Source of the DNA: Deltaproteobacteria bacterium | GTDB lineage: Bacteria; Desulfobacterota; BSN033; UBA1163 | Direction of reading: 5' to 3' | DNA length: 46,035 nt | Assembly (NCBI GenBank): GCA_018333535.1 | Contig: JAGXTA010000066.1 | Location: 1 to 46,035, forward strand | In this document: positions 3,698-8,582 of the stretch, one piece after another | How positions within the stretch are numbered: the first letter of the stretch is position 1 | How the letters are laid out: the number at the start of each line of letters is the position of its first letter | Program-made: the position numbers and the translations under genes | The notes under the pieces: generated by a model | Told to the model about the DNA's origin: nothing | The model's database searches: none | The model's input: the letters and a program-made list of their open reading frames with translations, nothing else

Positions 3698-4671
3698 GAC
3701 AAGATTCTCTCCTTACCATCAAAAATTTGCGGACTTGCTTCCATACATATGAAGGCGTTTTGACAGCCGTGGATGGAATCGGTTTGGAGATTTACCGGGG
3801 AGAGACCCTTGGGGTCGTGGGAGAGAGTGGCTGCGGAAAGAGCGTCACCGCCCTTTCCATCCTGAGACTACTTGCCTCACCTCCTGCGGAGATTCAGGGG
3901 GAGATTCTGTTTGATGGCAAGAACCTCCTGAATATGAGTCTGGATGAAATACGAAAGATCCGGGGCAATAGCATTTCAATGATATTTCAGGAGCCCATGA
4001 CCTCGCTCAATCCGGTCCTGACCATTGGGGAGCAGATATCAGAGGCCATCAAGCTTCACCAGGGGGTGACGCATCAGGAAGCTTGGGCAGAAGCCGTTGA
4101 GATGCTTCAGATGGTTCAGATCCCTTCTCCTGAGATCAGGGCCAAAGAATACCCCCACAAACTGAGCGGTGGGATGCGGCAGAGAGCGATGATTGCCATG
4201 GCGTTGTCTTGCCATCCGAGATTGCTACTGGCAGATGAACCCACGACAGCTCTGGATGTGACCATCCAGGCCCAGATTGTGGACCTGATGGAGCGCCTAA
4301 AAGAAGAGATTAAGACTTCTGTTTTGTTGATCACTCACAACCTGGGTCTCATCGCAGAGATGGCCAAGCGTGTCGTCGTTATGTATACAGGCAAAGTGGT
4401 GGAGGAAGCTTTGGTGGAAGATCTTTTTGCTGAACCTCTTCATCCCTATACCCAGGGCCTCTTGGGATCCATCCCATGGATGGGACGGAAGATGAAGGCC
4501 GGCCGAAAGCAGCTCCAGGAAATCCCGGGGATGGTCCCCAGCCTTCTTGAGATGCCCGAGGGATGTAGATTCCATCCGCGGTGTCCACGCATGATGGACA
4601 TCTGTAGGAAGGAAGAGCCTCCCCTGGTCCAGAAAGATGGTCGCCGGGTCCTCTGCTGGCTGTGGAAGTGA
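3694..4671 (+). CDS. dppD: ABC transporter ATP-binding protein, DppD/OppD type
   Basis: Cytoplasmic ATPase subunit, 325 residues. Walker A is GESGCGKS near residues 44-51, the Q-loop lies in FQEPMTSLNP, the signature is LSGGMRQR, Walker B is LLLADEPTTALD, and the switch His is in LLITHNLG. The C-terminal oligopeptide-transporter extension carries the Cys-containing PEGCRFHPRCP motif seen in Dpp/Opp ATPases. The ATG overlaps the DppC stop. This gene and DppF normally form the heterodimeric motor. Confidence 0.94.
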   Translation: MRQDSLLTIKNLRTCFHTYEGVLTAVDGIGLEIYRGETLGVVGESGCGKSVTALSILRLLASPPAEIQGEILFDGKNLLNMSLDEIRKIRGNSISMIFQEPMTSLNPVLTIGEQISEAIKLHQGVTHQEAWAEAVEMLQMVQIPSPEIRAKEYPHKLSGGMRQRAMIAMALSCHPRLLLADEPTTALDVTIQAQIVDLMERLKEEIKTSVLLITHNLGLIAEMAKRVVVMYTGKVVEEALVEDLFAEPLHPYTQGLLGSIPWMGRKMKAGRKQLQEIPGMVPSLLEMPEGCRFHPRCPRMMDICRKEEPPLVQKDGRRVLCWLWK

Positions 4672-6968: not shown

Positions 6969-6997
6969 TTGACAAGTCATTTTGAATCTGCTAAGAA
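6969..6997 (+). promoter_or_regulatory. Sigma-70-type promoter of the Trp leader transcript
   Basis: A perfect -35 hexamer TTGACA (6969-6974) is followed after exactly 17 bases by TAAGAA (6992-6997), a 3 of 6 match to the -10 consensus. This would start transcription near 7004, about 20 bases before the leader-peptide ATG, as in known attenuated operons. Confidence 0.6.
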
Positions 6998-7025
6998 GAG
7001 CATAACTTTTAATGGAATAAGGTAA

Positions 7026-7109
7026 ATGAAACATATTTCGCAGTTGAAGAGGATGAACTGGTGGTGCTGGCAGAAAAATAGAGGGGAGGTCTGCCTGGCG
7101 CCATTCTAA
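7026..7109 (+). CDS. trpL: Trp leader peptide (attenuator peptide, TrpL-like)
   Basis: A 27-codon reading frame (ATG 7026, TAA 7107-7109) encodes a short basic peptide with the cluster N-W-W-C-W at codons 11-15; the Trp codons are at 7059-7064 and 7068-7070. Three Trp residues in 27 are far above expectation and are the hallmark of trp leader peptides. AAGG lies 3 bases before the ATG, and an alternative TGGA lies further upstream. It sits between a promoter and a terminator hairpin that has a competing antiterminator. The peptide has no expected function of its own: ribosome pausing at the Trp codons would report charged tRNA-Trp levels. The next full gene downstream is a TrpD-like protein. 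Confidence 0.82.
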   Translation: MKHISQLKRMNWWCWQKNRGEVCLAPF

Positions 7110-7141
7110 ATATTTGAATTGAAAATGAAGGCCATGGGCGG
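7069..7141 (+). promoter_or_regulatory. Trp attenuator: mutually exclusive RNA pairings
   Basis: Region 1 GGCAGA (7069-7074), overlapping the last Trp codon, pairs with TCTGCC (7090-7095). Region 2 can instead pair with region 3: 7091-7096 with 7136-7141 (including two G-T wobbles) and 7097-7099 with 7131-7133, leaving a 2-base bulge. Region 3 is also the left arm of the terminator hairpin 7128-7163. A ribosome stalled on the Trp codons would cover region 1, free region 2 and disrupt the terminator. This is the classic E. coli trp logic, deduced here from base pairing only. Confidence 0.75.
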
Positions 7142-7167
7142 CGTCCCTGCCACCCATGGCCTTTTTT
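7128..7167 (+). terminator. Attenuator terminator hairpin
   Basis: AAGGCCATGGG (7128-7138) pairs perfectly with CCCATGGCCTT (7153-7163), with a 14-base loop and six consecutive T residues (7162-7167). It begins 19 bases after the leader-peptide stop codon, the expected position for a trp attenuator terminator. Confidence 0.82.
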
Positions 7168-7196
7168 CTTTCTGCTTGTTTCAGAGGAAGGATTCG

Positions 7197-7230
7197 AAAG
7201 GCTATGGAGATTGTCCATAGCCTTTTTTTT
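7197..7230 (+). terminator. Second intrinsic terminator, same orientation
   Basis: AAAGGCTATGGA (7197-7208) pairs perfectly with TCCATAGCCTTT (7214-7225) around a 5-base loop, and the T-run continues to 7230. It resembles the first hairpin (AGGCYATGG core), which suggests duplication. No competing antiterminator is evident for it, so it may end the leader RNA unconditionally. Confidence 0.8.
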
Positions 7231-7317
7231 AACAAATTCAACATGCCCAGATGGCACTCACGAATGATGAAAATGATTACTAAGACCGAATTTCAAGAAA
7301 GATTAGGCAAATAACAC

Positions 7318-7382
7318 TAAGGCTAACGAATTTCACGAATAAAACTCATTCGTGTCATTCGCTCTAATTCGTGTTATTCGGT
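7318..7382. repeat. Palindromic AT-rich repeat (ACGAAT/ATTCGT family)
   Basis: AACGAATTTCACGAAT is followed by reverse-complement-like ATTCGTGTCATTCG and AATTCGTGTTATTCGG. It lies between the second terminator and the Shine-Dalgarno sequence of the TrpD-like gene. The rest of 7231-7420 shows no further gene. Confidence 0.5.
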
Positions 7383-7420
7383 TCTTTTTTCTAAAAAATC
7401 CAAATGAAAGGAGAAGGACG

Positions 7421-8512
7421 ATGATCAAAGAAGCGATTGGCAAACTGGTTATGAAGGAGAATTTGGCGGCAGGAGAGATGGAAGAGGCAATGAGGGAGGT
7501 GGTAACGAAAAAAGCGTCAACAGGACAGATTGCATCCTTCCTCACCGCATTGAGGATGAAAGGAGAGACTTCCGAAGAGATCACAGGGGGGGCAAAAGTG
7601 ATCAAAGAGAAGTCCTTAAAAATCAATCTTGGAGGAGAGGCTGTCTGCCTGGACCGGGAGGAGATTACGGTCGAGAGGGAAACCATCCTGAGCACGGCAA
7701 AAGATTTTTCAGGGGAGACCGCCATATTCAACATCTCAACGGCAACCGCCCTGGTTGTGGCAGGAGGAGGTCTGAAGGTGGCCAAATGTGTGAAGAAGCC
7801 TGCTCTGCCTCTCTGCGGTTGCGCCGACGTGATTGAAGCATTGGGGGTTCATCTCGATCTGACCCCCAGTCAACTCGGAAGATGTTTTAATACCTTGGGC
7901 ATCTGCTTTCTCCACGACCATCTGGTCCACAATGGGTTGGATCATCTCATTGCCCTTCGGAAAAAAATCGGCATCCGAACACTTTTTAATCTTTTAGATC
8001 CTCTCATCAACCCGGGAGGAGCAACCGTTCAGGTATTGGGCGTCTATGATCCGGACCTGACGGAGACGATGGCCACTGTTTTGATGAATCTCGGGATCAA
8101 GAAGGGTCTTGTGATTCATGGAAGGGATACGCTAGACGAGGTCAGCATTACCGGAGAGACGAAAGTCACTGAATTGAAAGAAGGGAAGATGGAGAGCTAC
8201 ACCATCGAACCGGAGGATTTCGGAATGAAACGGAGAAAGGTCGAAGAGATTAAGGGCGGGACAAAAGAGGAGAATGCAGAAATCATTCTTGAAATTCTAA
8301 AAGGCATTGGAGGAGCGAAGCGCGAGGTTGTTGCCCTGAATGCGGCATCGGCCTTTGTGATTGCCGGAAGGGTGAAGGATTTTAAGGAAGGGATTGAGCT
8401 GGCCAAACAATCGATTGATTCAGGGAAAACCCTTGATATTCTGAACAGGTTGGTTCAGTTTACAAATTCTGAACACCGATTCATAAGAGGTGAATTGACG
8501 GCGATGGGATAA
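7421..8512 (+). CDS. Anthranilate phosphoribosyltransferase (TrpD)-like protein with degenerate active site
   Basis: 363 residues, colinear with TrpD along its length. The start has an AAAGGAGAAGG Shine-Dalgarno sequence. Retained TrpD features are FNISTATALVVAGG, ADVIEALGV, LGIRT-like GIRTLFNLL, QVLGVYDP, LDEVSITG (the Mg-binding Asp-Glu pair), EDFG and the C-terminal AKQSIDSGK. The substrate sites are not retained. The PRPP loop GTGGD is replaced by STAKD, the KHGNR anthranilate/PRPP segment reads KCVKK, SGSAD reads CGCAD, and GPLTNP reads DPLINP. From TrpD structures these changes should abolish normal phosphoribosyl transfer. The gene lies behind a Trp attenuator but next to a thiolase, with no other trp gene here. 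It may be a repurposed TrpD fold or a decaying gene, but the intact frame favours a retained function. Confidence 0.85.
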   Translation: MIKEAIGKLVMKENLAAGEMEEAMREVVTKKASTGQIASFLTALRMKGETSEEITGGAKVIKEKSLKINLGGEAVCLDREEITVERETILSTAKDFSGETAIFNISTATALVVAGGGLKVAKCVKKPALPLCGCADVIEALGVHLDLTPSQLGRCFNTLGICFLHDHLVHNGLDHLIALRKKIGIRTLFNLLDPLINPGGATVQVLGVYDPDLTETMATVLMNLGIKKGLVIHGRDTLDEVSITGETKVTELKEGKMESYTIEPEDFGMKRRKVEEIKGGTKEENAEIILEILKGIGGAKREVVALNAASAFVIAGRVKDFKEGIELAKQSIDSGKTLDILNRLVQFTNSEHRFIRGELTAMG

Positions 8513-8582
8513 AAACTCTCCCTTTTTTATTGACAGTTCTTAAAAAACGGTTTATTGAATCGGCAGTGGAAAGGGGGAGACT

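Follow-up and report, generated by a model that had tools for sequence, protein, structure and literature searches.

A probable tryptophan attenuator with two terminators, most likely coupled, before a TrpD paralogue in Desulfobacterota

Why should a leader built like a tryptophan sensor stand before a gene outside any trp operon? The window, the whole stretch of 46,035 nucleotides analysed here, is contig C66 of a draft genome of 4.39 Mb (97.2% complete), and an earlier note had described a trp-type attenuator at 6969-7167. As that note had stated, no trpE, trpG, trpC or trpBA follows; the next gene encodes a TrpD-like protein. It is flanked by a divergent nitroreductase-family gene and a thiolase, with ABC transporter and beta-oxidation genes in the wider neighbourhood. 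The sequence features described below make it very likely that a ribosome-mediated Trp attenuator controls this TrpD paralogue. We are also fairly confident in the fuller reading of such an attenuator composed, most likely, of six strands and two coupled terminators, a confidence that applies mainly to the attenuator and its target.

The locus was compared with orthologues in 11 relatives (59-96% identity of the TrpD-like proteins), namely six of the same genus (G001, G005-G009), one of the same family (G011) and four of the same class (G018, G019, G021, G022), so that the 12 orthologous loci referred to below are the window plus these 11, all from one class of Desulfobacterota. The named records are metagenome-assembled genomes under the labels Deltaproteobacteria, Thermodesulfobacteriota and Syntrophaceae. 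Within 395 sampled genomes of the phylum the gene was found in 10, every one from this class.

The leader and its first terminator

The promoter, the leader peptide and the first four strands are located as follows.

6969-6997, plus strand: promoter, read from the sequence (TTGACA 6969-6974, 17 bases, TAAGAA 6992-6997)
7026-7109, plus strand: leader open reading frame, 27 codons and stop; Trp codons 7059-7064 and 7068-7070
7061-7104, plus strand: 1:2 hairpin, strand 1 (7061-7074, spanning the Trp codons) with strand 2 (7090-7104); minimum-energy fold, -20.7 kcal/mol
7084-7147, plus strand: 2:3 antiterminator, 7091-7096 with 7136-7141 plus 7084-7087 with 7144-7147
7127-7167, plus strand: 3:4 terminator T1, 7127-7142 with 7149-7164, one mismatch, then a T-run

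The promoter is present as described before, and its TTGACA element occurs at the equivalent place in all 12 orthologous loci. The leader of 27 codons with its W-W-C-W cluster was confirmed at the position listed; it reads MKHISQLKRMNWWCWQKNRGEVCLAPF and ends with the stop codon 7107-7109. Among the 1020 small open reading frames of the window it is the only one with at least three Trp in four residues; 27 frames of this kind were counted among the 11,348 small frames of the other loci, and roughly two thirds of the 27 belong to leaders. Predicted leaders with 2-4 Trp codons were found in each of the 12 loci, two orthologues having only W-x-W or W-R-R-W. In the window, the adjacent Trp codons of this putative short leader overlap strand 1.

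Folding bore out the three pairings 1:2, 2:3 and 3:4 with small corrections of coordinates. The z-score was -3.6 for 7004-7175 and -5.6 for 7004-7240, and none of 200 shuffled sequences was as stable. The antiterminator, previously drawn as 7091-7099 with 7131-7141, exists and covaries, but is better described by the two helices listed above. T1 had been called a perfect hairpin with a T-run; hairpin and T-run are both there, but the stem contains one C.A mismatch (7139/7152). T1 was found in 12 of 12 orthologous loci.

The switch is also supported by the 2:3 core, which is 99.1% paired across 18 leaders of TrpD-like and trpE genes, compensatory changes included. One pair is seen as CG, UG, UA and GC, and another switches from CG to UA. 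The covariation score was reached by none of 500 shuffles, and slid versions of the pairing were only 35-54% paired. The 2:3 and 3:4 pairings are mutually exclusive, with 2:3 conserved by covariation. Loss of the Trp codons or of the pairing in relatives had been named as the result that would speak against the earlier reading; the codons are kept and the antiterminator pairs covary, and conservation and covariation together support the proposed Trp-sensing design. Furthermore, the TrpD-like gene lies downstream on the same strand in 12 of 12 loci, a layout which suggests that transcription can pass through the terminator.

A second terminator and its pairing with T1

The earlier description of the attenuator was incomplete, since it overlooked a second terminator, T2, directly after the first.

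7197-7230, plus strand: 5:6 terminator T2, 7197-7208 with 7214-7225, then a run of eight T to 7230; the stem resembles that of T1
7154-7207, plus strand: 4:5 pairing, strand 4 (7154-7164) with strand 5 (7197-7207), 11 pairs, one of them G.U

The 5' arm of T2 is AAAGGCTATGGA, compared with GAAGGCCATGGG in T1. T2 is present in 12 of 12 TrpD-like loci, and a second terminator with a related stem directly after the first was found in 54 leaders in total, which belong to about 18 families. Strands 4 and 5 are complementary in all 12 TrpD-like loci as well as in several trpE and Phe/Tyr/Trp leaders, and across the 54 tandem leaders the stretch spanning strands 4 and 5 folds into a 4:5 hairpin. The stem varies by family (CATGGCC in f1, CACGGCC in f2 and f3) while the 4:5 complementarity stays.

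The regulatory response that we infer from this arrangement would run as follows. With ample charged tRNA-Trp, the ribosome would reach the leader's stop codon and cover strand 2, 3:4 would form T1, and any polymerase escaping T1 would meet T2. If Trp-tRNA is scarce, the ribosome would stall on the W-W-C-W codons and mask strand 1; 2:3 would then form and leave strand 4 free, which would pair with strand 5 and disarm T2 too. With both terminators disarmed, transcription would proceed into the TrpD-like gene.

When strand 1 is masked, the growing transcript is predicted to fold into 2:3 while it ends at 7150-7160, into T1 once it reaches 7167, and into exactly 2:3 plus 4:5 when its end lies at 7208-7215. 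In the full-length transcript, 3:4 plus 5:6 is more stable than 2:3 plus 4:5 (-43 versus -26 kcal/mol); the switch, like that of other attenuators, must therefore depend on kinetics.

The coupling of T2, which we infer from the 4:5 complementarity, was examined by a permutation test in which T1 and T2 were reassigned between 21 lineage groups. This weakened 4:5 from -18.2 to -16.3 kcal/mol, with none of 2000 permutations as low as the observed value. Under the same permutation 3:6 weakened from -15.8 to -14.8 kcal/mol (1.2%), a weaker co-variation than that of 4:5 and one that matches what duplication or conversion of the hairpin would give. The 4:5 core is 96.2% paired, a value reached by 8 of 3000 group permutations. 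Substitutions counted site by site as keeping either 4:5 or 3:6 were even across lineages, which leaves the case for coupling good but not closed. Consensus folding of the spacer between T1 and T2 at 13 loci recovered the 4:5 helix; as these spacers do not align with one another, no inner helix with covariation emerged. The stem motif of T1 and T2 was present in 45 of 61 terminator-like hairpins in 568 kb, nearly all 45 of them in leaders. That the motif is a general habit of terminators in these genomes was rejected, because the 16 other terminator-like hairpins lack it.

The position of T2 also bears on its function. In the eight loci that do not have the insert described below (G005, G007, G008, G011, G018, G019, G021, G022) only about 30-45 bases separate the end of T2 from the start codon, and T2 must therefore be passable. 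With T2 still armed, this layout would leave the conserved promoter little chance of driving the TrpD-like gene. The window differs in having about 170 additional bases, with ATTCGTG/CACGAAT-type repeats, between T2 and the gene (7234-7405). This stretch is present in the host genome (G000) and in G001, G006 and G009, is absent from G005, G007 and G008, and looks like an inserted repeat element. It could contain a promoter, although relatives that do without the insert suggest that none is required there. Taken together, it is likely that T2 is coupled to T1 through a chain of six strands, a conclusion that is supported rather than proven.

The TrpD-like protein and its genomic setting

The gene behind the two terminators and an element before the thiolase are located as follows.

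7421-8512, plus strand: TrpD-like gene, 363 amino acids, paralogue of anthranilate phosphoribosyltransferase lacking GTGGD and KHGNR
8530-8558, plus strand: promoter-like element of the thiolase (TTGACA 8530-8535, 17 bases, TATTGA 8553-8558), in the 70-base gap before the thiolase

The protein scores 319.2 bits on the TrpD model TIGR01245 (cut-off 199.05) and retains the metal-binding DE and the helical domain. The altered active site reported before was seen in all 12 members, which have lost both GTGGD and KHGNR and have a STAKD-type sequence in place of GTGGD. In TrpD, the GTGGD motif holds PRPP by its 5'-phosphate and is also in contact with anthranilate (PMC9835598). Since the motifs that bind the PRPP phosphate are absent, the protein is probably no anthranilate phosphoribosyltransferase. 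The 12 proteins form a single clade (support 100/100) with Ka/Ks values of 0.12-0.17, similar to those of true TrpD from the same genomes, which points to a conserved paralogue under purifying selection and not to a decaying copy. A shorter TrpD-like copy in G010 (L061 9345-10151; about 56% identity over residues 157-356), before which no Trp leader was detected, is possibly a degenerating one.

A lost PRPP motif is also known from TrpD2/YbiB, a TrpD-related protein that binds DNA and is less than 20% identical to TrpD (PMC9835598, PMC10123104). Unlike it, the protein of the window is 42-51% identical to true TrpDs, has a pI of about 6 and reaches 36.6 bits on the NCBIfam YbiB model (cut-off 185). 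A structure predicted from seven sequences was of low quality, with a mean pLDDT of 59. From its motifs and the leader before it, the product has probably taken on a new function that is required under Trp shortage, and our best guess is that it helps the cell to cope by something other than the anthranilate phosphoribosyltransferase reaction.

No TrpE-type protein (PF00425), TrpC, TrpF, TrpA or equivalog TrpB was found in the 97.2% complete host genome. It encodes a TrpB2-type protein (TIGR01415, 586 bits), and therefore salvage of indole is possible. Since trp genes tend to lie together, their absence could come down to a single contig missing from the assembly, but they are likewise missing from G009, the closest relative, and from G005 and G008, which are better assembled. 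The TrpD-like gene coexists with trp genes in G001, G006, G007 and G011, of which G007 and G011 have a complete trp operon, and it persists where trpE and trpA were not found (G000, G005, G008, G009, G018, G019, G021). It thus appears that the gene is switched on by Trp starvation even in bacteria that show no Trp pathway.

It had also been suggested that the attenuator might govern the following thiolase. The separate promoter-like element before this gene is conserved in five of the six other same-genus loci, and in the sixth (G005) the gap as retrieved ends before it. This makes Trp control of the thiolase unlikely, and the gene is probably not attenuated, though some read-through may reach it.

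Alternative readings and related leaders

A simpler arrangement, doubtful but still to be reckoned with, is a classical four-strand Trp attenuator in which T2 takes no part in the switch and is only a reserve terminator or a duplicate left over from T1. Relatives with a single terminator do exist, as T2 is missing from the homologous leaders L053 and L057 and from the trpS leaders described below. In addition, the polarity test of 4:5 against 3:6 was even, and the motif is common to T1 and T2 phylum-wide, as common descent would give. However, an unregulated T2 would block the gene where it lies so close before the start codon, and the stems of T1 and T2 differ among families yet remain complementary. 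It is very unlikely that the element mainly yields a trans-acting small RNA and a leader peptide, like rnTrpL/peTrpL of Sinorhizobium (PMC7298713), with control of the adjacent gene being secondary. Two strong terminators would free an RNA of about 160-225 bases, and G013 has retained an orphan leader after loss of its trp genes, but the TrpD-like gene comes next in 12 of 12 loci, usually at the short distance from T2 where the insert is absent, and the leader peptide is poorly conserved beyond its Trp codons and the part that forms the strands.

The remaining readings concern the target gene. That the product is still a working anthranilate phosphoribosyltransferase under an ordinary trp-pathway switch is highly improbable: the family score, the retained DE and helical domain and the lack of a second TrpD-family protein in the host genome would agree with it, but both loops that hold PRPP and anthranilate (PMC9835598) are changed in 12 of 12 members, and TrpE, TrpC, TrpF and TrpA were not found in the host. 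The idea of a relic, a decaying trpD kept by chance when a trp operon was deleted, is largely refuted and retains hardly any probability. The host genome shows no other trp genes and the G013 leader outlasted its own, but two genomes have paralogue and leader alongside a complete trp operon, the proteins form one old clade under purifying selection, and leader, promoter and both terminators are intact.

The Trp attenuator with two probably coupled terminators differs in several respects from known systems. The trp leader of E. coli (Rfam Trp_leader) likewise has a promoter, a leader peptide with adjacent Trp codons, the pairings 1:2, 2:3 and 3:4 and a terminator with a U-run, whereas the leader of the window has a linked second terminator, no Rfam match and a TrpD paralogue outside a trp operon as target. 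Textbook attenuators have one terminator. This also holds for the his leader of E. coli and Salmonella, whose segments A-F pair as A:B, C:D and E:F (the terminator) or as B:C and D:E; six alternately pairing strands are common to both systems, but in the window 3:4 and 5:6 are both terminators. Tandem terminators with a possible antiterminator occur in the rimP leader of Gammaproteobacteria (PMC2965389), which has no amino-acid leader peptide, another gene and another sequence motif. Rfam scans of the window and 20 related loci gave nothing above threshold, and no account of tandem-terminator trp leaders in Desulfobacterota was found in the open-licence literature.

A covariance model of the leader has one match in the host genome and matches 102 of 395 genomes of the phylum (70 genera). 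Leaders from the same class of bacteria, homologous and equal in strand layout, several of them with T2, precede true trpE operons (L053, L056-L060, L100, L101). The Trp-leader design is therefore not confined to this locus but widespread in the phylum, and what is unusual are the target gene and the tandem terminators. If the reading is true, a chain of six strands that arms or disarms both terminators at once would let the switch close tightly and yet open completely. The target, a conserved TrpD relative devoid of the PRPP site that seems to be induced when Trp runs short, in cells which seemingly are unable to make Trp, would point to an unknown step of Trp salvage or regulation. The chances seem evenly balanced for the broadest form of this proposal, in which amino-acid attenuators of one class, spread throughout Desulfobacterota, link two terminators by a six-strand chain (1:2/3:4/5:6 versus 2:3/4:5), one copy having passed to a new protein, derived from TrpD, that responds to Trp starvation in cells where Trp is no longer made.

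Other genes of the phylum have similar leaders. Short WIW-type leaders with a single terminator and the same GGCCATGG stem precede trpS (L093, L095, L096, L102, L104, L105, L106; weaker cases L099, L107, L110), also in G013 and G015, genomes without trp genes, and trpS is probably under Trp attenuation. The orphan Trp leader of G013 (L094; G013:C142:1799-1910, minus strand) has an intact T1, the next sizeable gene being a TVP38-like membrane protein 255 bases on, and resembles what a deleted trp operon would leave behind.

Tandem-terminator leaders rich in Phe, Tyr and Trp were observed before shikimate operons (L092 4179-4289, L097, L098; L052 10225-10600; the gap between the TrpD-like gene and aroF in L051), with peptides containing FYFYWFFY, FYFSFYYLF or FYLFFYYF. 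FYFYWFFY precedes an alternative shikimate operon, and one operon behind such a leader is an archaeal-type early pathway. These leaders probably sense the aromatic amino acids jointly. For G018 and G019, a switch common to the TrpD-like gene and the aro operon that follows it was rejected, as this operon has its own Phe/Tyr leader. The leaders YYFYWFWY and WWFRFYYF (L094 about 3850-4120, minus strand; L049 3150-3500) stand before a gene whose product has about 530 amino acids and a GNAT-like domain; this gene adjoins shikimate genes in other genomes and is possibly a further member of the aromatic attenuator set. Finally, W-W-W leaders in L147 and L148 (G103, G031) precede a gene whose protein starts with MIAERLKRIKPSGVRRIFDMAKRMKDPIDLSLGEPDFDIPE and looks like an aminotransferase rather than TrpE.
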